DNA of 64,000 nucleotides. It comes from Opisthocomus hoazin (Eukaryota; Chordata; Aves; Opisthocomiformes; Opisthocomidae). The stretch lies in the NCBI RefSeq assembly GCF_030867145.1, contig NC_134419.1:1984001-2048000 (forward strand), read 5' to 3'. This document shows positions 33,727 to 63,520 of this stretch, one piece after another; position 1 is the first letter of the stretch; the number at the start of each line of letters is the position of its first letter. A model generated the notes under the pieces. The model had not been told where the DNA came from and ran no database searches. It saw only the letters and a program-made list of their open reading frames with translations. The translations under genes and the position numbers were made by a program.

Positions 33727-33935
33727 GCCAGGAACACCAACGCACTGAGCACAACCAATGTGCTGAGAAACACCAACACGCTGAGGAACACCAACGTGCT
33801 GAGAAACATCAACGCGCTGAGGAACACCAATGTGCTGAGAAACACCAACACGCTGAGGAACACCAACGTGCTGAGGAACACCAACACGCTGAGGAACACC
33901 AACACACTGAGGAACACCAACAAGCTGCATGGCAG
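33727..33935. repeat. 18-bp tandem repeat, about 11 copies
   Basis: AACACCAACACGCTGAGG with a few substitutions (GTGCTGAG, GCGCTGAG). The unit is a multiple of 3, so all frames without a stop stay open. Confidence 0.95.
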
Positions 33936-45400: not shown

Positions 45401-48400
45401 GTTTTTGTTTTGTTAATGATATTTAGAAAAATAAATCATGGCGCAGCGAGAAAAACAAAGCCCCCTGAAGCAATTAGCAACTCCAGCTCTAGCTGAACTC
45501 TGCATAATCTCCTGTTTCTCAGAGACCCAATTAAGTGTTGATGAACACATAACACCCATTACAAACCACCTTCCTCATGCGTCGCTCCCCCCAGCACCCG
45601 AAACGAGAATTCAGCCTTCCTGAGGAATCGGAGGTCATTTTTCATGAGCACCTACAAATGATTTCCCAAAGCGCCTGAACCGCCTGGGATGGAATTTTCT
45701 GGAAACATCCCTTGGTGTGACGGGCTGTGCAGCGAGGGAAGATACTCAGCTAAAGAGCCTGCCATGGCAAGAAGCGTATTTTTGCTAAAATCAGCACCAA
45801 GTTTTCTCCCCAGCCAACTGCAGTCATTCCCTTGGGATCGCTTCTCCTCAACAAGCACACGGTGCCGTCACCGCTGCGGAAAAGGAGAGGGGAGAGAAGG
45901 AACCGCCGTGCCCCGCAGTCAGACCTCAGCTGCCGTGATCTGCTGGGGTTGGGGCCACCCTGCAAGAAAAAGGGGCTTTGCCGGGACGTGCACGATGTGC
46001 ACCCTCGCCAGCGGGAGAATGTGGTCCGCCGGAGCATCCCGGGGACTGCAGCAGTTAAAGGTCATGAAAGAGGACAACTGCTCTAGCAGCAAGGCTGAGG
46101 AGCACCAGGGTAAGTTGTCTTCTCCTGGAAATGTAAGAGCAGGTTCAGCAAGCGTCTGTGAGGAGTGGAAGTGATACAGCTGATCTTCCCTCGGGAGCAT
46201 CTCTCTTACGAGGAGAGGCTGAGGGAGCTGGGCTTGTTCAGCCTGGAGAAGAGAAGGCTGAGAGGGGACCTTAGAAATTCTTACAAATATCTGCAGGGTG
46301 GGGGTCAGGAGGATGGGGCCAGACTCTTTCCAGTGGTGCCCAGCGACAGGACAAGGGGCAACGGGCACAAACTGGAGCATGGGAAGTTCCAGCTGAATCT
46401 GAGGAAGAACTTCTTCCCTCTGAGGGTGACGGAGCCCTGGCCCAGGCTGCCCAGGGAGGCTGTGGAGTCTCCTTCTCTGGAGATATTCCAGCCCCACCTG
46501 GACACGGTGCTGTGCAGCCGGCTCTGGGTGACCCTGCTTTGGCAGGGGTTGGGCTGGGTGACCCACAGAGGTCCCTGCCAACCCCTACCATGCTGTGATT
46601 CTATGAATTGTGTTGGCCAGTAGAACGCAAACCCAAGGCCAAATGCAATTTCTTCCTCTCCAAAGGGGAAAAAAAAAAAAATTCCCAGAAAAGGTCCTGC
46701 CCCTGATTTTGTGCGTTTGAAGCGTATGCACCTCCTGGTAGAGCTCCTGGAGATGAAGTGTTGCAGTTCCCTAAGCCGAGTGTGTTTGCAGTGCAAGGCC
46801 GCTCGGCTGGAGCACGCTGCAGACACAGCAAAGCATCTCTCAGACCCCTCGGGTTGAGGCAGGCAAGTGATGGAGGATGTCATGCTGCAGCCCGGGAGCT
46901 CAGCAGTTTTGGGGGGCAGGTGGCGCTGGCTCATCGAACTTGCATAAATAAATAAATAAAAAATGATTACAGTAATGGCTTACTGACAATGGACGGGCTC
47001 CACCTGAATAAGGCAGATGAAGAACCAGGTTCGACCTGTGGGGTCAAGCTGTAGATTTTGCTGTGGGTGTCATCTGCGGGTTGTGCTACACTGGACGGCT
47101 GCACTGCCATCCAGCGAGACCTGGACAGGCTGGAGAGCTGGGATAGAGAGGAACCTCAGGGAACTGAACAAGGGCGAGTGCAGGGTCCTGCACCTGGGGA
47201 GGAAAAACCCAGTACAGGCTGGGGCTGACCTGGAGAGCAGCTCCGTGGGGAGGGACCTGCGAGTGCCGGGAGACAACATGTTGACCATGAGCCAGGAGTG
47301 TGCCTTGGCTGCCAAGAAGGCCAGTGGGATCCTGGGATGCATTAGGAGGAGTGTGGAGAGCAGGTCAAGGGAGGTTCTCCTTCCCCTCTATTCTGCCCTA
47401 GTGAGGACCCATCTGGAGCACTGTGTCCAGTTCTGGGCTCCGCAGTTCAAGAAAGATGAGGAGCTACTGGAGAGAGTCCAGCGGAGGGCTACGAGGATGA
47501 GGAGGGGACTGGAACATCTCTCCTACGAGGAGAGGCTGAGCGAGCTGGGCTTGTTCAGCCTGGAGAAGAGAAGGCTGAGAGGGGACCTTAGAAATGCCTC
47601 TAAATATCTGCAGGGTGGGTGTCAGGAGGACGGGGCCAGACTCTTTGCAGTGGTGCCCAGCGACAGGACAAGGGGCAACGGGCACAAACTGGAGCATGGG
47701 AAGTTCCGTCTGAACATGAGGAAGAACTTCTTCCCTCTGAGGGTGACGGAGCCCTGGCCCAGGCTGCCCAGGGAGGTTGTGAAGTCTCCTTTTCTGGAGA
47801 TATTCCAGACCCACCTGGACGCGGTGCTGTGCAGCCGGCTCTGGGTGACCCTGCTTGGGCAGGGGTCTGGGCTGGGGGATCCCCAGAGGTCCCTTCCAAC
47901 CCCTGCCATCCTGTGATTCTGTGATTCTGTGCTGGTGCTTTGTAAGCAAACCTTGTCACAGACGCGACCTTCACTGGTGCCTCACCTTGGTACTTCCCCA
48001 CATGAACCCCCAAGCTTTGTTAGAGGAGCCTACGCAACCACTAAGGATGAAGTCTCTATTTTTAAACATTTAACACTTTTCTAATACATTTGCTACTGCA
48101 AAGGTTAGAGCACCCTCCTTTTGACACCCAGCTCTTCCCCTTTCCACACAGACAGAGAGCTGCCGACAAGGTTTAAGCCCACTTGAGGATCAGAGACCTG
48201 GAAATTCATGTCAACAGAGCTAACCCGGCCTGCCTGAAGCCAAAGGCTGTCAGCATGTCCGTGATGATAACAGCCAGGGCTAACAGCCATGAACAGCCCG
48301 GGATGAACCAGCCAGGAATATTTTTTTCCATTTCTTAGGAGAAAATGGAATAACTGCGCTTCTCAAAGCCATGAGGGGTGCCAAGAAGAAAGACGGAGCG

Positions 48401-51400
48401 GGTTTGTCGTGGGGCAAGTATCTGAGCAACTTTACATAACCCATGTAAAATTGCATCACAGCATGGGGCAGTGAACTGATGATGTCCTCAGGTGTTCTGG
48501 TGGCCTGCAGCCTCAGGCAGCTCTGTCAGGGCACCCACAGCTCTTAATGGCCCTGACCAGCCTCAGCTGGGGCCTCCACCCACACCCCCTGCCCAGGTGC
48601 TCTATTTAAGCTCAGCCCCAGGCACTCAGCTCTTTTTGGGCTATCTCTAGGAGCTGGAGGTCCAAACCTTGACCTGTGGGCTGACTTCATGACCTGACCT
48701 CATCTCTGTGGACCTGCCCAGCCACCACCGGACACTGTGTGCAGCACCCATAGATGCAGAGGTTTTGTTGGTGCTGTGGTGTATGCAGAACAGGTATGAG
48801 TGCACCCTCGGTATGTTTGCAGATGACACCAGGTTGGGTGGGATTGTTGATCTGCTTGAGGGTAGGAAGGCTCTGCAGAGGAATCTGGACAGGCTGGATC
48901 AATGGGCTGAGGTCAATCATATGGGATTCAGCAATGGGGCAAGGTGCTGGGTCCTGCACTTGGGTCACAACAACCCCACACAACGCTCCAGGTTTGCGGA
49001 GGAGTGGCTGGAGAGCTGCCAGTGGAAAAGGACCTGGGGGTGATGGTTGACAGCCAGCTGAACATGAGCCAGCAGTGTGCCCAGGTGGTCAAGAAGGCCA
49101 CCGGAATCCTGGCTTGTGTCAGAAATGGTGTGGGCAGCAGGCCCAGGGCAGGGATTGGGCCCCAGTACTGGGCGCTGGTGAGGCTGCACCTTGAGTGCTC
49201 TGTTCAGCTTTGGGCCCCTCACTCCAAGCAGGACATGGAGGGGCTGGAGCACGGCCAGAGAAGGGCAGTGAGGCTGGGGAGGGGGCTGGAGAACAAATCT
49301 GATGAGGAGCGGCTGAGGGAACTGGGGCTGCTCAGTCTAGGGAAGAGGAGGCTGAGGGGGGACCTTCTCGCTCTCTACAGCTCCCTGACAGGAGGGTGGA
49401 GTGAGGCGGGGGTTGGTTTCTTCTTCCAAGTAACTAGCGATAGGACAAGAGGAAATGGCCTCAAGTTGCATCAGGGAGGTTTAGATTGGATATTAGGAAA
49501 AATATCTTTACTAAAAGACTGGTCAGATATTGGCACAGGCTGCCCAGGGCAGTGGTGGAGTCCCCATTCCTGGAGGAGTTCAAAAACTGTGTGGCTGTGG
49601 CATTTGGGGACATGGTTTAGCAGGCATGGTGGGGTTGGCGTGACAGTTGGACTTGATGATCTTCAAGGTCTTTGCCAACCTTAATGATTCTATGGTTCTG
49701 TGGTGGTGCTGGGAGGTGTCCTCAGATGTTGAGCTGTGTGTGGATGGTCCTGGCTCACCTGGGTGAGGACCAGCAGCAGCATGGATCAGCTCAGTGTGCC
49801 AGCTCTTGAGGACAACCCAAGCCAATGCACGCAGTGCTGGAGATGGTGACAGTCCTTACTCCCCTTTCTTTGTAAATTGGCCCCTGCTCTTCTCTAACAC
49901 AGTTTCCAGAACAGAAGCCTGCCTGCATCCCACTCCAGGTGAGAAAGGGTGGGCTGCAGCTCAGCCAGGTGGTCTCTGTAGAAGTTGTTTCCTATGTTTT
50001 GATTTACCTACAATATTTTGCGAAGCAGCAACCTCATCTTTTCTATCACAAAAAGGGATGATGACTCCACTGGTGTATCTTGTGAGGCAAGACGTGGTTC
50101 TCGCGTGCAGTAGATCTGCACACAGGAGCAAAGCTCAGCTAGAGAAGGCTTCCATACAGGTGCATTGATAAAAATCTCTATTTTCCTGTCCTGCAGCCAA
50201 GAGGTTTCCACCTAGAGCCCTGCTTTCCTCTGCTGAATGGGAGGATTTTACATCTTTTTCTAAAAGTAATTCTACAAAACTGGCAGCTTTTGGGAACATC
50301 AAGAAGGAAACAGCAAGCCGAGCTCTGCAGCTCCATTGCAGCAAGCAGCAACTTCTCCCCCCAAGGGGGCTTACCTTGGCTGGAGCTTGGTTTGCTGACT
50401 CCATCAGGGTAGACGGCGTACACCCACACATTGATGTGACCTCCTGCCGCTGCCTCGTCTAGAAAGAAGGGAGATTTGCCTTTAAAATATCTTTGCAAGC
50501 TGCTGAGAAAGCTCTAGGCTTGCTCAAGGGCTTAGTACTGAGTGGTGGAAGTAGATGGAGGTGGAGGTGCCCAGCTCTGAGCCCGCTGCATGCCCTCCCT
50601 CCCTGGGGAAAGCCACTGCATGAGCCATTCCCAAAAACACATGCGGAAGAGCAAAAGTGTGGTCAGGTAGCTAGGGAGTACCCCAAAACCGGTGAGCACC
50701 AGAATTAATGTGAGAAGCTGGAATGGAGCAGGATGGGTCCCAGGATGTCGGCGCTGCTGGGCTCAGGCTGTGTCGGGGAGGACCTGCAGGCTCGTCTCCC
50801 CAGTCATGGTGGGGAGGAGAGGTGTGAAAGCAACAGCCTTAGTGCTTCGGGGGCTGCGCGGTATCCTAATGGGATCCTGGGGTGCATCACGAGGAGTGTG
50901 GGCAGCAGGTCGAGGGAGGTTCTCCTTCCCCTCTGCTCTGCCCTGGGGAGGCCCCATCTGCAGTGCTGGGTCCAGTGCTGGGCTCCCCAGTTCAAGAAAG
51001 ATGAGGAGCTACTGCAGAGAGTCCAGCGGAGGGCTACGAGGATGATGAGCAGACTGGAGCATCTCTCCTAGGAGGAGAGGCTGAGGGAGCTGGGCTTGTT
51101 CAGCCTGGAGAAGAGAAGGCTGAGAGGGGACCTTAGAAATGCTTCTAAATATCTGCAGGGTGGGGGTCAGGAGGACGGGGCCAGACTCTTTCCAGTGGTG
51201 CCCAGCGACAGGACAAGGGGCACGGGCACAAACTGAAGCAGAGGAAGTTCGGTCTGAACATGAGGAAGAACTTCTTCCCTCTGAGGGTGATGGAGCCCTG
51301 GCCCAGGCTGCCCAGGGAGGTTGTGGAGTCTCCTTCTCTGGAGATATTCAAGACCCACCTGAACAAGGTCCTGTGCAGCCTGCTCTGGGTGACCCTGCTT

Positions 51401-54400
51401 GGGCAGGGGTTTGGGCTGGGGGATCCCCAGAGGTCCCTTCCAACCCCGACCATTCTGTGATTCTGTGATTCTGTAAATGCCCATGGGCATCTCCTGTGCT
51501 GGGGCAGGCCTCTGCAGGTCCAGGGTGGCTTCCCTGCCTGCCAGCTGATGTCACTCCAGCCTCTTCCACTGTCCCTTCTTCCCCTGTGACCTTCACCTGG
51601 GGGACCGAATCCCGCTGGCTGCCCTCACATGTCCCATCGCTTCACTCCTCCCTTCCTGGCCCCACTCTCCAAAAACACGTGGGCAGGGGCTCCATTTCAA
51701 ACCAAACGTTGCCTTCAGAAAATATTTTGGCTTTATAAATCCCGATGAACTGCACCAGATAGCACCAGGGCTCCCAGAACACCTCACCTTGGATGTACGT
51801 GTGCGTCTCCTGGTGTGGGACCCTCTTCCAAGAATACCGCTCCTCCTGGCCATACTGGGCGGTGGAAACCCACTCCACTATGAACCAGAGTGGGGACCTC
51901 CCGCTGCGCCGGGGGGGCTGCCAGGCCACTGAGACCCTGCTCTGGTTCTCGGCCTTGACCTCCACGGCCACCGGCGCCGGGAGCTCTGCGGAGAGAGACG
52001 GCAAGGGGGCTGTCAGCCCATCCTCCTCTTCGGAGGGTGGGGACTCGTGAGGGCCGGGAGAAACATCTCTCCTGAAAGTGTTTCAGGACTGGAGAGGGAA
52101 CACGAAGTGCTAGAATGTGGTGGTGGGTTTATATGTATATAAAAATTATATCTATTTTTAGATACATCTCTCTGCTCACAAACATGAACCACAAAAGCCC
52201 GTCTTCAGCTCTGTCACGTCTCGTAAGAAATATTTTACCTGTCATTTCTTACCAGAAAGGAGCACGGTTCTGATAAGCGTGAGAGATTAGAGAGTTTTTT
52301 CCACCTTATTTCTCTTCGGTTTCTTTTTAGTCATGTATTTGTCCTCAGTTTGAATTTGGGACTTTCCCCTCCCATTGCTCATTCAAAGAGACGTTTTTCA
52401 AAAAATAGGAAAGCGTGGTTGTGGGGAAAACCACAAGCTGGGGCGCAGGGAACCGAAGGTGGCCCAGAAAGGATTTCATTTTTTTGGTTTTTTGTTTTTC
52501 CTTGCTTTCTGTTTGCTGGGGCTGGCTCGCCGGCAGAGCAGCCGGAGGTGGCTTGGGGAGCACCGAGCTCGCGCCGAGCCTGCCACGCGGCGCAGCCCTG
52601 CCAGCCAACGCAGGCATCAGAAATGCATTTTGAAGCTTGTTGCTGCAGCCTTCAAGCTCCAAGGGCTGCTGCGATGCGTGGCCGCAGAGCATCTCCGTCT
52701 CCGGGGGATGCTGCCCGTGCCCGGAGGAGGTTGTGTTCCCTCGGCGGAGCGGGCAGAGCTCTGCCGGGGCTTTTCCCTTGCTTTAGTGCAAGTTGGCGTT
52801 TTTTCCCCTGCAATGCTGATAGAATCCAGTCTCTGCAAGGCTGAAGCTGGGGGGTGGTGACACCCTACCTTCCCTGCTGAGGGGGACCCAGCTGAGGGAG
52901 ACCCTGCCTCCCCAGCCAAAGATGACCCCACCTTCTTGCCCATGGGTGAACCCATGTCCCCAGCCAAAGGTGACCCCACCTTCTTGCCCAAGGGTAACCG
53001 TACTTCCCCAGCCAAGGGGGACACCACTTTCTTGCCCAAGGGTGACCCCATGTCCCCAGCCAAAGGTGACTGTACTTCCCCAGCCAAGGGGGACCCCACC
53101 TTCTTGCCCAAGGGTGACCCCATGTCCCCAGCCAAAGGTGACTGTACTTCCCCAGCCAAGGGGGACTCCATGTCCCCAGCCAAAGGTGACCCCACCTTCT
53201 TGCCCAAGGGTAACCCTACTTCCCCAGCCAAGGGGGACACCACTTTCTTGCCCAAGGGTGACCCCATGTCCCCAGCCAAAGGTGACTGTACTTCCCCAGC
53301 CAAAGGTGACCCCACCTTCTTGCCCAAGGGTAACCCTACTTCCCCAGCCAAGGGAGACCCCACCTTCTTGCCCCCAGGTGACCCCATGTCCCCAACCAAA
53401 GTTGACCCCACCTTCTTGCCCAAGGGTAACCCTACTTCCCCAGCCAAGGGGGACCCCACCTTCTTGCCCACAGGTGACCCCATGTCCCCAGCCAAAGGTG
53501 ACCCCACCTTCTTGCCCAAGGGTAACCCTACTTCCCCAGCCAAGGGGGACCCCACCTTCTTGCCCAAGGGTGACCCCATGTCCCCAGCCAAAGGTGACTG
53601 TACTTCCCCAGCCAAGGGGGACTCCATGTCCCCAGCCAAAGGTGACCCCACCTTCTTGCCCAAGGGTAACCCTACTTCCCCAGCCAAGGGGGACCCCACC
53701 TTCTTGCCCACAGGTGACCCCATGTCCCCAGCCAAAGGTGACCCCACCTTCTTGCCCAAGGGTCACCCTACTTCCCCAGCCAAGGGGGACCCCACCTTCT
53801 TGCCCACAGGTGACCCCATGTCCCCAGCCAAAGGTGACCCCACCTTCTTGCCCAAGGGTGACCCCATGTCCCCAGCCAAAGGTGACTTTACTTCCCCAGC
53901 CAAGGGGGACCCCATGTCCCCAGCCAAAGGTGACCCCACCTTCTTGCCCAAAGGTGACCCTACGTCCCCAGCCAAGGGGGACCCCACCTTCTTGCCCAAG
54001 AGTGACTCCATGTCCCCAGCCAAGGGGGACCCTACTTCCCTGGCCAAGGGGGACCCCACCTTCTTGCCCAAGAGTCACCCTACTTCCTCAGCCAAAGGGG
54101 ACCCCACCTTCTTTCCCAAGGGTCACCCTACTTCCCCAGCCAAGGGGGACCCCACCTTCTTGCCCAAGGGTGACCCCATGTCCCCAGCCAAAGGTGACTG
54201 TACTTCCCCAGCCAAGGGGGACTCCATGTCCCCAGCCAAAGGTGACCCCACCTTCTTGCCCAAGGGTAACCCTACTTCCCCAGCCAAGGGGGACCCCACC
54301 TTCTTGCCCAAGGGTGACTCCATGTCCCCAGCCAAGGGGGACCCCACTTTCTTGCCCAAGGGTGACCCCATGTCCCCAGCCAAAGGTGACTGTACTTCCC

Positions 54401-57400
54401 CAGCCAAGGGGGACCCCATGTCCCCAGCCAAAGTTGACCCCACCTTCTTGCCCAAGGGTAACCCTACTTCCCCAGCCAAGGGGGACCCCACCTTCTTGCC
54501 CACAGGTGACCCCATGTCCCCAGCCAAAGGTGACCCCATCTTCTTGCCCAAGGGTAACCCTACTTCCCCAGCCAAGGGGGACCCCACCTTCTTGCCCAAG
54601 GGTGACCCCATGTCCCCAGCCAAGGGGGACCCCACCTTCTTGCCCAAGGGTGACCCCATGTCCCCAGCCAAGGGGGACACCACTTTCTTGCCCAAGAGTG
54701 ACCCCATGTCCCCAGCCAAAGGGGACCCCACCTCCCTGGCCAAAGGTGATCCTACCTTTCTGCCCAAAGGAGACCCCACCTTCTTGCCCAAGGGTGACCC
54801 CATGTCCCCAGCCAAGGGGGATCCCACCTTCTTGCCCAAGGGGGACCCCACCTCCCCAGCCAAGGGGACCCTACCTTCCAGGCCAAGGGGGATGATGGCG
54901 GGGCTGGAAGCGCCCTTGGCATTGTGCGCAGTGATGTGGAGGGCTCGGGTTCCCGGGGGCACCCGGACGGTGCAGGCTGTGCCGGAGGTGTTGCAGAGGG
55001 GTACCAGGAGGGTGCAGGTTGTGCTGGAAACGTTGCAAGGGGGCTGTGATCCCCTGGGGGTCTTGGCGGCTACAGCATAGCCCAGGATCCTCCCGCGGGC
55101 ATCCCGGGGCTGCAGGGGCTGCGGGTGGCCAGACAGAGTCACAGAATGGTCGGGGTTGGCAGGGATCTTTGTGGGTCACCCAGCCCAACCCCCTGCCCAA
55201 GCAGGGTCACCCAGAGCTGGCTGCACAGCACCGCGTCCAGGGGGGGCTGGAATATCTCCAGAGAAGGAGACTCCACAGCCTCCCTGGGCAGCCTGGGCCA
55301 GGGCTCCATCACCCTCAGAGGGAAGAAGTTCTTCCTCGGGTTCAGCTGGAACTTCCCATGCTCCAGTTTGTGCCTGTTGCCCCTTGTCCTGTCGCTGGGC
55401 ACCACTGGAAAGAGTCTGGCCCCATCCTCCTGACACCCACCCTGCAGATATTTAGAGGCATTTCTAAGGTCCCCTCTCAGCCTTCTCTTCTCCAGGCTGA
55501 ACAAGCCCAGCTCGCTCAGCCTCTCCTCGTAGGAGAGATGTTCCAGTCCCCTCCTCATCCTCGTAGCCCTTTGCAGACAGACAGACAGCCCTGGAGTGGG
55601 ACAGATGTCCCCTAGTCTGGGCGACACATGGGTGGGTTTTGCAAGGATGGGGAGATTTTGCCCCAAAGACTTGTTGGGGTCTCGCCTCCCCCCTCCCCCT
55701 GTGGCCGAAGGGCCCTTGGCAGGGGCTGTGCTTGGGCAGGAGCCAGAATTTCCTCGGGAGCTGCCAAGGAAATTGAAAAAAAAGGGCTTTTTACCTGGAT
55801 GAGGACCGTCACCTCATGGCTGCCATCGGGGGAGACCGGACCCAGGCGCCGCCAGACTGCGGGCGCGACGGCGGGGGCTGCGGGGGGAGTGGGCTGAGCC
55901 CCTGGGGAGACCGGCTGGGATCCCCCCCACCCGCCATCGGGGCACCCAGCAGCCCACCCACGGGGCTTCCACCTGTGCTTGGAGCTCCCACTGCGATCGG
56001 GGCACCCACCCGTGCTCGGGGGTCCCTTCCACCCACCCACAACTGGGGCTCCCACCCACAATTGGAGCTCCCACCTGCAATCAGGGCTCACAGGTACCCT
56101 CTCACCAGGCTCCCACCCATGCTCGGGGCTCCCACCCACAAGCAAGGCTCCCACCCATGCTTGGGATTCCCACTCGTGGGGCTCCCACCCACACTTGGGG
56201 CTCCCACCCACAATCAGGGCTCACAGGCACCCTCTCATGGGGCTCCCACCTGTGAATTGGGCTCCCACCTAGCCACCCACAGGTCTCCCACCCACATTCG
56301 GGCCTCCCATCTGTGCTCAGGGGTCCCACCCGCAATCAGGGCTCCCACTCATGTGGCTCCCACCCACACTCGGGGCTCCCACTCATGGGGCTCCCACCCA
56401 CAAACAGGGCTTCCACGCACCCATCCACAAGGCTCCCACCCATGCTCAGGGCTCCCACCCAGCCATCCACGGGGCTCCCACCTGTGCTCGGGGCTCCCAC
56501 TCATGGGGCTCCCACCCACAAACAGGGCTTCCACGCACCCATCCACAAGGCTCCCACCCGTGCTCAGGGCTCCCACCCAGACATCCACGGGGCTCCCACC
56601 TGCGCTCGGGGCTCCCACTCATGGGGCTCCCACCCCCCGCAGCCCACGCTGCCCCGGGGACCAGGCCAGATGAGACGGGTGGGCGCATCCCCTTCCTCCC
56701 TCCGTTCCACCAGCCATCTGCCCCCCGAAGTCCCCCGCGTTTCTCTCCGGCACCGTGGCCACCTCAGGACCCTGCCCCAAAGCGCTCGCCACGTGCTGGG
56801 GGGGACGCGAGGGGAGCTGCCAGCTCGGGACAGTGCTCAGATGGGGACGGTGCCCCCCGCCCCGCGGCATCGTGCCCAGGCGGGGCGGCCATGTGCACGC
56901 TCCCGCATCGCGTGTGCGCGCGTCGCTGGCTAACTTGAGCTTGGGGTGGGACGTCTCGAGGATTTTGGGGGGGAGATGGCGAGAGCAGCTGAGCGTACCT
57001 GCCTCGGGGGTGGTGTAGAGAAACGGGGGGCTCCAGGTGCTCCAGGGGCTGCTGGCAGGGCTGAGCCGGCAGCGGACCTGGAACGCGTACTGCGTGTCAC
57101 TCTGCAGGTCGTGCCGCGAGCGGGGCCCGCGCTGCGCCGCGCCGTCCCACGCCTGCACCTGCGAGGGATGCGGGGTGCTGAGGGGGGGGAGCGGGAAGCA
57201 GCCGGGACCCCCACACACAGAGCGGTCGCTGCCTTCCTCGTCTGCGGGGATGGCGGTGGGCACCGTCCTCCTCGAGCACGCGGGGCTGGCTGAGCCTCGG
57301 GGTGCTGCCCGCCGAGGGGGGTCCCGCCCGCCGAGGGGGTCCCCAGTGCTGGGGGGTTGGAGGGTGACGATGGTCCACGCGCTGTCCACACTGTTAATGC

Positions 57401-60400
57401 ACCCGGCAAGCTCGGGGGGGGTCCAGTGAGAGCCCCTGGGCCACCACCACGCTGGGCTTCTGGCACTGGGGCCATTCTGGGGGGGCTCTGGTGGATGCTG
57501 GGGTCAAGTTAGAGCCCATGGCCCATCACCATGCTTGGCTTCTGGCACCAGGGACATGTTGAGGGGCTCCAGTGGGTGCTGGCGTCCAGTGGGAGCCCCT
57601 GGGCCACCACCACGCTGGGGTTCTGGCACCGGGGCCATTTTGGGGGGGGCTGTGGTGGGTGCTGCGGTCCAGTTAGAGCCCCTGGCTGACCACCATGCTG
57701 GGCTTCTGGCACTGGGGCCATTTTGGGGGGGGTTCTGATGGGTGCTGGGATCCAGTGAGAGCCCCTGGGCCACCACCACGCTGGGCTTCTGGCACTGGGG
57801 CCATTTTGGGGGGGGCTCTGATGGGTGCTGGGATCCAGTGAGAGCCCCTGGGCCACCACCACGCTGGGCTTCTGGCACTGGGGCCATTCTTGGGGGGCTC
57901 TGGTGGATGCTGGGGTCAAGTTAGAGCCCCTGGCTGACCATCATGCTGGGCTTCTGGCACCGGGACCATTTGGGGGGGCTCCAGTGGGTGCTGGGATCCA
58001 GTGAGAGCCCCTGGCCCATCACCACGCTGGGCTTCTGGTACCAGGGACATGTTGAGGGGCTTCAGTGGGTGCTGGGGTCCAGTGAGACCCCCTGGGCCAC
58101 CACCACGCTGGGGTTCCAGCACCGGGGCCATTTTGGGGGGGGCTGTGGTGGGTGCTGGGGTCCAGTTAGAGCCCCTGGCTGACCACCACGCTGGGCTTCT
58201 GGCACTGGGGCCATTTTGGGGGGGGCTCTGATGGGTGCTGGGATCCAGTGAGAGCCCCTGGGCCACCACCACGCTGGGTTTCTGGCACCGGGGCCATTTT
58301 GGGGGGGGCTCTGATGGGTGCTGGGGTCAAGTTAGAGCCCCTGGCTGACCATCATGCTGGGCTTCTGGCACCGGGACCATTCTGGGGGGGCTCCAGTGGG
58401 TGCTGGGATCCAGTGAGAGCCCTTGGCCCACCACCATGCTGGGCTTCTGGCACCGGGACCATTTTGGGGGGGCTCCAGTGGGTGCTGGGATCCAGTGAGA
58501 GCCCCTGGCCCACCACCACGCTGGGCTTCTGGCACTGGGGCCATTCTTGGGGGGCTCTGGTGGATGCTGGGGTCAAGTTAGAGCCCCTGGCTGACCATCA
58601 TGCTGGGCTTCTGGCACCGGGACCATTCTGGGGGGGCTCCAGTGGGTGCTGGGATCCAGTGAGAGCCCTTGGCCCACCACCATGCTGGGCTTCTGGCACC
58701 GGGACCATTTTGGGGGTGCTCCAGTGGGTGCTGGGATCCAGTGAGAGCCCCTGGCCCACCACCACGCTGGGCTTCTGGCACCGGGGCCATTTTAGGGGGG
58801 CTCTGATGGGTGCCGGGGCCATTTGCCCGTGGGTCTGCACAGGGGCAGGATTTGGGTGGGGGTCCCAGGCCGTCTCACGTGCCACGCCGGAGCACCGGCG
58901 GCTTTGTGTCGCTCCTCGCAGCGCACGTTCTCCAGCTGCGTCTGCCTGCTCCAGCGGATGATGGTGACGGGAGGTGACGTCTCCGTCGTCTCGGCGCCAG
59001 CGACCAGGGGCAGAGCTGGGACCACTGCGGGGCGAGCCGGGAGAGCGTGGGTCGGGGGGCTGGCAGCCCACGTGCGAGCCACGCCGCTCACGCGTGTCCC
59101 CAACGCGACGTCTCGGGGCAGGGCGTACGGCTGGGCGCAGCACGTGGTGGGCTCACGGATGGATGGATGGATGGGTGGACGGATGGACGTACCGAGCTCC
59201 CGCAGGTCGAGGAGCCGGGGGGCCGAGCGGGCGGCACCCAGCGTGTTGCTGGCCTGCACCCACGCCGAGTAGCGGCTCCTGTTGCGCAGCGCGCTCAGCG
59301 GCACCGGCGAGCCCGCGGGGAAGACCTCCTCCTCCTCCTCCTCAGCATCCTCAGCATCCCCCACAGCCGTCCCCACGCTGGGAAGCAGAAGGTCAGAGCC
59401 CTTACGGCAAACCAGAAAGCCACCGCCTCCGGGTCTCGACATTTCCGTGGCGCGTTTTCGCCGCGGGGAGGGAACTTTCTCCGTTCTCTCTGCCTGCGCG
59501 GCTCATATCTCATCTACAAGGGGCAACGGGCACGAACTGGAGCATGGGAAGTTCCAGCTGAACATGAGGAAGAACTTCTTCCCTCTGAGGGTGACGGAGC
59601 CCTGGCCCAGGCTGCCCAGGGAGGCTGTGGAGTCTCCCTCTCTGGAGATATTCCAGCCCCGCCTGGACATGGTGCTGTGCAGCCGGCTCTGGGTGACCCT
59701 GCTTGGGCAGGGGGTTGGGCTGGGTGACCACAGAGCTCCCTGCCAACCCTGACCATTCTGTGATTCTGATCTGAACTCAAGCAGACCCAGGCGGGCGGTT
59801 ACTCGCTCCTCTTTGCAAAGCCGACGTGTGACGGGATTCAACGCGTTCGCTTCATGGAGTCAGACGCGCTGTGACAGCCTGCCGGCCTTGTGCCGTGGGG
59901 ATTCGGCGCCCGGCAGCGCGCGTCACGGGCCGGGGAGGAAGGCTGTGCTGCACCGCGCAGCCCCCAGCACGCCCGCGTCAGCCTCCAGCTCCTGCACCCC
60001 GCCGGGGTTTCGGTTTCGGGGTTTGGGCAGCGTTGGCTGCGCCAGCTTCTTCAAATCACCCCGTTTAGCTGGGAGACCCCATCCCCCCGCAAAAACCGCG
60101 CTGCCGTAGCGCGCGGCGACGCGACGCGGTGTCTGCGGGGCTGCCGGCGGCACCGAGCGCGCATCGCCCATCCCGTGGAGCTCAACCCTCGTTCGTGAGC
60201 AGGAGATGAGGAAGACGCGAGCTTAGGAAGAGTAACTAGGGCAGCAGCCCCGGCGTCGCCGGATTTGCGGTCACCGCGCCCCGACCGCGTGCCCCGCTCC
60301 GTCTCCGCCGGTCACCGCGCCATCCCCCTCCGGCTCCCCGCGTCGCCGCAGCCCCCGTCCCGCCGGCCCTACCTGCGCAGGTGGAGGGTGTAGCGGGTGT

Positions 60401-61714: not shown

Positions 61715-63520
61715 TGGGGGCGATGGGGACGCATGGTGAGGCTTCTGCTGGGGATTTGGGGCTTTGGAGGGCGATGCGGACGCATGGCGAGGCCCTCGCT
61801 GGGGATTTGGGGGGCGATGGGGATGTGTGGTGAGGCTCTCGCTGGGGATTTGGGGCTTTGGGGGGTTATGGGAATGTGTGGCGAGGGTTTTGCTGGGGAT
61901 TTGGGGTCTTGGGGGGCGATGGGGACGCGTGGCGAGGCTTTCGCTGGGGTTTTGGGGTCTTGGGGGGTGATGGGGACGCGTGGCGAGGCTCTCGCTGGGG
62001 ATTTGGGGCTTTGGGGGGCGATGGGGACGCGTGGCGAGGCTCTCGCTGGGGATTTGGGGTCTTGGGGGGCGATGGGGACACGTGGCGAGGCTTCTGCTGG
62101 GGATTTGGGGTCTTGGGGGGTGATGGGGGTGCGTGGCGAGGCTTTCCCTGGGGATTTGGGGCTTTGGGGGGCGATGGGGACACGTGGCAAGTCTTTCACT
62201 GGGGATTTGGGGTCTTGGGGGGCGATGGGGATGTGTGGCGAGGCTTTCGCTGTGGTTTTGGGGTCTTGGGGGTTGATGGGGACACGTGGCGAGGCTTTCG
62301 CTGGGGCTTTGGGGGGGCGATGGGGATGTGTGGTGAGGCTTTTGCTGGGGATTTGGGGCTTTGGGGGGCGATGGGGACGCATGGTGACACTTTCGCTGGG
62401 GATTTGGGGTCTTGGGGGGCGATGGGGACGCTTGGCGAGGCTTTTGCTGGGGATTTGGGGCTTTGGGGGGCGATGGGGGCGCGTGGCGAGGCTCTCGCTG
62501 GGGATTTGGGGTCTTGGGGGGCGATGGGGACACGTGGCGAGGCTTCTGCTGGGGATTTGGGGTCTTGGGGGGTGATGGGGGTGCGTGGCGAGGCTTTCCC
62601 TGGGGATTTGGGGCTTTGGGGGGCGATGGGGACACGTGGCAAGTCTTTCACTGGGGATTTGGGGTCTTGGGGGGCGATGGGGACGTGTGGCGAGGCTTTC
62701 GCTGTGGTTTTGGGGTCTTGGGGGGTGATGGGGACACGTGGCGAGGCTTTCACTGGGAATTTGGGGTCTTGGAGGGCGATGGGGATGCGTGGCAAGGCTT
62801 CTGCTGGGGATTTGGGGCTTTGGGGGGCGATGGGGATGCGTGGCAAGGCTTTTGCTGGGGATTTGGGGTCTTGGAGGGCGATGGGGATGCGTGGCGAGGC
62901 TTTCACTGGGGCTTTGGGGGGCGATGGGGACGCGTGGCGAGGCTTTCACTGGGGATTTGGGGCTTTGGGGGGCAATGGGGGTGCGTGGCGAGGCTCTCGC
63001 TGGGGATTTGGGGCTTTGGGGGGGCGATGGGGACGCGTGGCGAGGCTTTTGCTGGGGATTTTTGGCTTTGGGGGGCGATGGGGGTGCGTGGCGAGGATTT
63101 CGCTGGGGATTTGTGGCTTTGGGGGGTGATGGGGACGCGTGGCGAGGCTTCTGCTGGGGATTTGAGGGGCGATGGGGGTGCATGGTGAGGCTTTTGCTGG
63201 GGATTTGGGGTCTTGGGGGGGCGATGGGGACACGTGGTGAGGCTTTCGCTGGGGTTTTGGGGTCTTGGGGGGCGATGGGGATGCGTGGCAAGGCTTCTGC
63301 TGGGGATTTGGGGCTTTGGGGGGCGATGGGGATGCGTGGTGAGGCTTTTGCTGGGGATTTGGGGTCTTGGGGGGGCGATGGGGATGTGTGGCAAGGCTTT
63401 TGCTGGAGATTTGGGGTCTTGGGGGGGCGATGGGGACGCTTGGCGAGGCTTTCGCTGGGGTTTTGGGGTCTTGGGGGGTGATGGGGACGCGTGGCGAGGC
63501 TTTCGCTGGGGATTTGGCGT
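61715..63520. repeat. 51-bp G-rich minisatellite 5' of IL23R, about 35 copies
   Basis: Each plus-strand unit carries GGGGATTTGGGG, CTTTGGGGGGCGATGGGG and ACGCGTGGCGAGGCTTTCGC. The unit is 17 codons, so it stays open in several frames. The G-rich strand is the template strand for IL23R. It starts about 100 bp 5' of the IL23R exon. Confidence 0.95.

Follow-up and report, generated by a model that had tools for sequence, protein, structure and literature searches.

A 24-bp minisatellite in the stretch of hoatzin DNA analysed here (64,000 nucleotides, hereafter the window) begins where an exon of the IL-23 receptor gene (IL23R) ends, and many of its units resemble the splice donor of that exon. 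This raises two questions: did the array grow out of the splice junction or did it reach the exon end from within the intron, and what would so many donor look-alikes (referred to as decoys) do to the transcript? A first-pass annotation of the sequence suggested that the array had either grown out of the splice site or converted the exon end to the repeat, and that competing decoys could give variable exon ends which always stay in frame, because 24 is a multiple of 3.

IL23R is encoded on the minus strand of the window, where ten exons (61580-50375) with GT-AG borders, the first of them beginning at a presumed ATG, are joined in one frame. In PDB, IL-23 receptor chains match the translation over residues 8-322 (E 3e-59), and an IL-12 receptor beta-2 chain matches it over residues 28-496. 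The single-frame chain of ten exons and the former match bear out the gene and strand originally assigned. Exons 7-10 (50375-55877) contain fibronectin-type-III sequence past the PDB-matched IL-23 receptor part (query residues up to 322-329), and the receptor is therefore longer than those PDB constructs. Open stretches further downstream look like a membrane-spanning segment and a cytoplasmic tail, recognised by eye, which we take to be IL23R-like. A run of glutamate codons (14 residues) is present in exon 4 (59193-59377), and the IL-23 receptor chain is gapped there in the PDB alignment.

Exon 8 (55118-54875, minus strand; 244 nt, phase 0 in and phase 1 out) encodes part of a fibronectin-type-III domain, as placed by the in-phase exon chain and by alignment with the gp130 and IL-12 receptor beta-2 chains. 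It ends in CCCCCTTGGCCTGGAAG and is followed by a GT donor (54874-54873, minus strand; AAG/GTAGGG, with the slash marking the exon border), which scores 4.70 bits, forms a U1 duplex of -9.7 kcal/mol, and supplies the phase-1 exit needed by exon 9 (51985-51788, minus strand; phase 1 in). Exon phase thus suggests that this donor is live. Exon 8 also contains a 42-bp in-frame tandem duplication (55037-54954; 32/42 bases alike) that codes for two 14-residue stretches, while just one such stretch (CNTTHTQCNFSAP) is seen in a paralogous cytokine receptor of this genome. This duplication is a second sign of slippage in exon 8, a coding repeat beside the intronic repeat.

The array itself occupies 54867-52900 on the minus strand, where a row layout at exactly 24 bp gives 82 in-register units. 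Beyond 52900 the register decays into a degenerate far edge (52899-52861, minus strand), which agrees with the length of about 2 kb first given. The array takes up about 2.0 kb of intron 8, which measures 2.9 kb, and Tandem Repeats Finder reports arrays of period 48, 144, and 192 between 52887 and 54889. Sorted by their positions 14-16, the 82 units consist of 30 AAG, 25 GAC, 20 GAA, 3 GAG, and 4 other units; GACAT stands at the motif place in 24 of them, and any in-register GT in 56. From the unit at the exon end to the first array unit the step is 23 bp, while the other 50 of the 51 steps from one CTTGG to the next are multiples of 24. The one-base deficit lies at 54864-54867 (minus strand), where CCCC stands in place of the five bases (CCCCC, CACCC and similar) of the interior units. 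No copy of the array was found elsewhere in the genome by a search that skipped very common words and scored the best candidates, as 19/19 matches listed fall in the IL23R array, and its origin therefore looks local. A spaced-pattern search of the genome gave one match on another contig and zero in the array, the latter because AAG-type units rarely adjoin each other.

One question is whether the exon end is truly part of the repeat. The unit at the exon end, for which an agreement of 20/24 with an array unit had been claimed, agrees with the 82 units at 14-21 of 24 positions (mean 17.7), with one unit at 21 and two at 20. As part of this match is donor consensus, the exonic bases were tested without the final AAG. 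The exonic 15-mer preceding AAG has a 14/15 match in the array; among 1,417 other exon 15-mers, a single one, from exon 2, does equally well. When the register is fixed, a 12/13 match is obtained for the exonic 13-mer, which is reached by 0/1,437 other exon 13-mers and 0/19,329 sampled 13-mers of the window (both exon control sets omit the end of exon 8 itself). An exon-only BLAST of the exon 8 end against intron 8, in the style of a study of chicken introns (PMC12954441), found a best match of 12 nt and 24.3 bits, within the shuffled range (maximum 30.2), and the case for homology therefore rests on the in-register test. On that test we take the homology as real, and the 18 coding bases that end exon 8 (54892-54875, minus strand) belong to the repeat, as the first reading of the sequence had it.

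Several features bear on which came first, the junction or the array. The 12-mer GGAAGGTAGGGT has two occurrences in the 64-kb window (shuffles give a mean of 0.03), one at the junction of exon 8 and the other in the far edge of the array (52873-52862, minus strand), and is absent from the 82 interior units. It was, however, selected post hoc, and some resemblance to it is to be expected in an edge unit of this array. An identical sister unit is present for 53/66 interior units, compared to 2/8 of the units nearest the exon and 4/8 at the far end, and the mean identity to all units is hardly lower at the edges (17.75 and 17.49) than in the interior (17.93). This pattern fits, though not strongly, a homogenised interior with older sequence kept at both edges. 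Further, the paralogous cytokine receptor mentioned above (L019; E 3.6e-4), pieces of which match gp130, leptin receptor, and G-CSF receptor chains, is predicted to have a phase-1 donor at the place matching the exon 8 donor, one codon further on. The gp130 chain aligns gap-free through the exon 8 end and shows a single gap shortly after it, a few residues inside exon 9, and the IL-12 receptor beta-2 chain has 3 residues more than IL23R at this end, so the length of the exon 8 end is not strictly conserved. These two alignments indicate that the exon 8 end has not been lengthened, and together with the phase-1 donor of the paralogue they suggest that the exon 8 donor should be older than the array.

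The converse order, in which the array arose within intron 8 and later spread into an exon end that was overwritten by gene conversion or slippage and tolerated by the protein, would agree with the free variation, length included, of the residues coded by the exon 8 end among homologues, and with the one interior unit that the exon-end unit resembles at 21/24. We consider this order unlikely, however, as the exon end has the far-edge 12-mer and not an interior type, is not longer than in gp130, the IL-12 receptor beta-2 chain, or the paralogue, and lies under a coding and donor constraint that should resist overwriting. Growth out of the splice site is thus the better of the two origins suggested in the first-pass annotation, and we favour an array that grew out of the exon 8 junction, with the seeding probably directed from the junction into the intron.

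Donor strength was scored with a vertebrate donor weight matrix (cut-off 3.5 bits) and by pairing with the U1 5' end. At least 3.5 bits are reached by 32 sites in the array (31 in units and one at the far edge, GT 52868-52867), compared to 1 site in the other 866 bases of intron 8. Of these, 27 are AAG/GTGGGG sites scoring 4.58 bits, two score 3.70, one 4.16, and one 4.28, and the far-edge site scores 4.70, the same as the real donor. Among the controls, 300 first-order Markov resamples of the array contain 5.8 such sites on average and 12 at most, the reversed array has 0, and the other strand of the array has 7; intron 6, which is also repeat-rich, has 6. The U1 pairing energy of the common decoy is -9.3 kcal/mol, and matrix and U1 energy agree in placing it just below the real donor, while the order of some rarer decoys differs between them. 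The common decoy beats 5 of the 10 mapped donors of the gene on matrix or U1 energy, and the real donor is middling by matrix, with 4 of the 10 IL23R donors scoring higher. The dozens of near-copies of the donor noted at first sight thus persist as 32 sites under position-weight scoring, but the two motifs named for them, AAGGTGGGG (27/82) and GAAGTAGGG (12/82), are found in 39/82 units together and not in most units as had been stated.

Besides donor motifs, the array is dense in GGG runs (73.9 per kb, compared to 12.7 in the rest of intron 8 and 64.2 in intron 6). G triplets are bound by hnRNP H/F, and the array might act as an intronic splicing enhancer that aids the authentic donor, in which case it would be mildly useful and not a hazard. 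The middling matrix score of the real donor would suit such a role, but intron 6 is similarly G-rich without an exon-end array and the same motif doubles as a decoy, and we regard the enhancer function as very doubtful.

Most of the decoys are close in strength to the real donor. All 32 add 2 modulo 3 bases and shift the frame, owing to the 23-bp first step with its one missing C. Since the 32 decoys share one register, their being out of frame represents one event (with a chance of 2 in 3) and not 32. The 23-bp step and the uniform 2 modulo 3 additions lead us to reject in-frame variable exon ends, and the early expectation that the ends would always be in frame is contradicted by all 32 decoys. 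The missing C at 54864-54867 could be an assembly error in the C-run, and the decoys would then be in frame. In translations of the decoys spliced to exon 9, the frame from the 12 nearest decoys runs into a stop in exon 9 that lies 90 nt short of the exon 9/10 junction, and that from the other 20 ends inside the extension. By the 50-55-nt rule, mRNA decay is predicted from the position of a premature stop. Decoy use would give a premature stop where such decay is predicted, breaking the protein.

The decoys may nevertheless be used, in the manner of the minisatellite donors of human IFI6 (PMC4526556) but in this gene always with a frame shift. The fraction of IL-23 receptor that is decayed or truncated (and possibly soluble) would then depend on the length of the array and the number of decoys. 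Such use is compatible with either origin of the array. The near-equal strength of the 27 AAG/GTGGGG sites (4.58 bits and -9.3 kcal/mol, compared to 4.70 bits and -9.7 kcal/mol for the real donor), which exceed 5 of the 10 donors of the gene, would permit it, as would the local opening cost, which gives the real donor no general advantage (6.6 kcal/mol, compared to a decoy mean of 6.4). However, the two nearest decoys (+23 at 54851 and +47 at 54827) require the most energy to open among the 32 (14.2 and 11.3 kcal/mol, respectively; noticed post hoc), the farther ones would make exon 8 very long, and there is no sign of selection for decoys. We therefore think that such decoy use is quite unlikely, even with the precedent of IFI6. 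Folding of the junction RNA showed nothing unusual (z 0.09). An extended form of the idea, in which the array acts as a length-variable brake on the IL-23 receptor and decoys derived from the exon's own donor divert part of the transcripts towards forms that are frame-shifted, decayed, or truncated and secreted, appears highly improbable; if it were true, a longer array in an individual would mean less full receptor.

Taken together, we consider it probable that the exon 8/intron 8 junction seeded the array, that the decoys are out of frame, and that the authentic donor yields nearly all productive mRNA. The seed would have consisted of about 18 exon bases and the first intron bases, copied into the intron by slippage or unequal exchange in a local tandem expansion. 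The interior would have been homogenised into three main unit types, one that kept the donor-like AAG/GTGGGG, one with GT changed to AT, and one that was weakened, while both edges would have retained older sequence. The authentic donor (54874) was likely retained because coding and splicing hold it, and its in-frame connection to exon 9 presumably makes it the source of the receptor. If splicing slipped to a decoy, the outcome would be a premature stop and then mRNA decay or a truncated receptor. The array may thus be a by-product of local slippage that sends a small share of transcripts into decay, and its dense G runs could strengthen the upstream donor. We expect it to be a passenger or a mild hazard rather than to generate in-frame exon ends.

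The locus is a readable example of a minisatellite that a coding splice junction probably seeded. It lies in a gene for an immune receptor, on a large contig, and offers a natural test of a splice donor among some thirty near-equal decoys. Like the intron 8 array, further minisatellites are present at IL23R, in introns 5 (57418-58818) and 6 (55961-56635) and upstream of the gene (61716-63517), comparable to ordinary intronic minisatellites of a GC-rich gene. Unlike it, these overlap no exon end, and the closest of them starts some 60 bp away from the donor of exon 5. Repeats make up about 1.4 kb of intron 5, which is 1.7 kb long. What we take to be CR1-like retroelement fragments, recognised by eye and with approximate limits, lie in or beside introns at about 55139-55590, 51000-51480, 46180-46610, and 47440-47930. 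Elsewhere in the window, an 18/36-bp repeat with the unit AGGAACACCAACGCGCTG (33730-33927) is open in several frames on both strands.

The repeat unit of human IFI6 (also known as 6-16 or G1P3) is 12 bp, and its alternative exon ends keep the reading frame. The IFI6 minisatellite contains multiple splice donors (Turri et al. 1995, NAR 23:1854, as cited in PMC4526556), and downstream repeat units serve as donors, giving rise to three mRNA species (PMC4526556). In the IL23R array, too, donor sequences are provided by the units of a minisatellite at the end of an exon, with 32 sites of at least 3.5 bits resembling the donor of the adjoining exon. Unlike in IFI6, the IL23R decoys are out of frame (32/32 add 2 modulo 3 nt) and are sites predicted from sequence.

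IFI6 is the older precedent; another parallel is the exon stuttering described in chicken introns, where part of a coding exon and its donor or acceptor are copied through the intron (PMC12954441, Genome Biol Evol 2026). According to that paper, it affects 236 introns in 115 genes, with 190 of the introns on dot chromosomes and 36 on macrochromosomes, a preference that is strong but not exclusive. In over 90% of cases the source is no more than 1 base away from the exon border, the copying is local, the exon itself is said to be unaltered, the median span is 1,751 bp with 1-44 exon copies, and length varies strongly between individuals. Its screen admitted exon matches of at least 20 nt and 42.1 bits, which is a detection threshold and not the authors' definition. 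IL23R is not named in the main text of that paper, nor is this array named among the matches listed in our searches of open-licence PMC papers. Measured against the published description, the IL23R array differs in its short exon part (18 nt), its 24-bp unit, and its more than 80 units, and its best exon match of 12 nt and 24.3 bits fails the screen. Unlike most of the chicken cases, it is also not on a dot chromosome, as its contig is 80,946,297 bp long and the gene lies about 2 Mb from the end. As to length, the analysis covered one assembly, with the array at one place in it. Because the exon part of the IL23R array is 18 bases, the published screen would miss it, and such cases may therefore be undercounted. 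Despite these differences, intron 8 is likewise filled by imperfect local tandem repeats (82 units), the repeat block likewise includes an exon edge and its splice site (18 nt plus the GT donor), and the span of about 2 kb is close to the published median. Similar cases have thus already been published, and in its anatomy the IL23R array fits exon stuttering.
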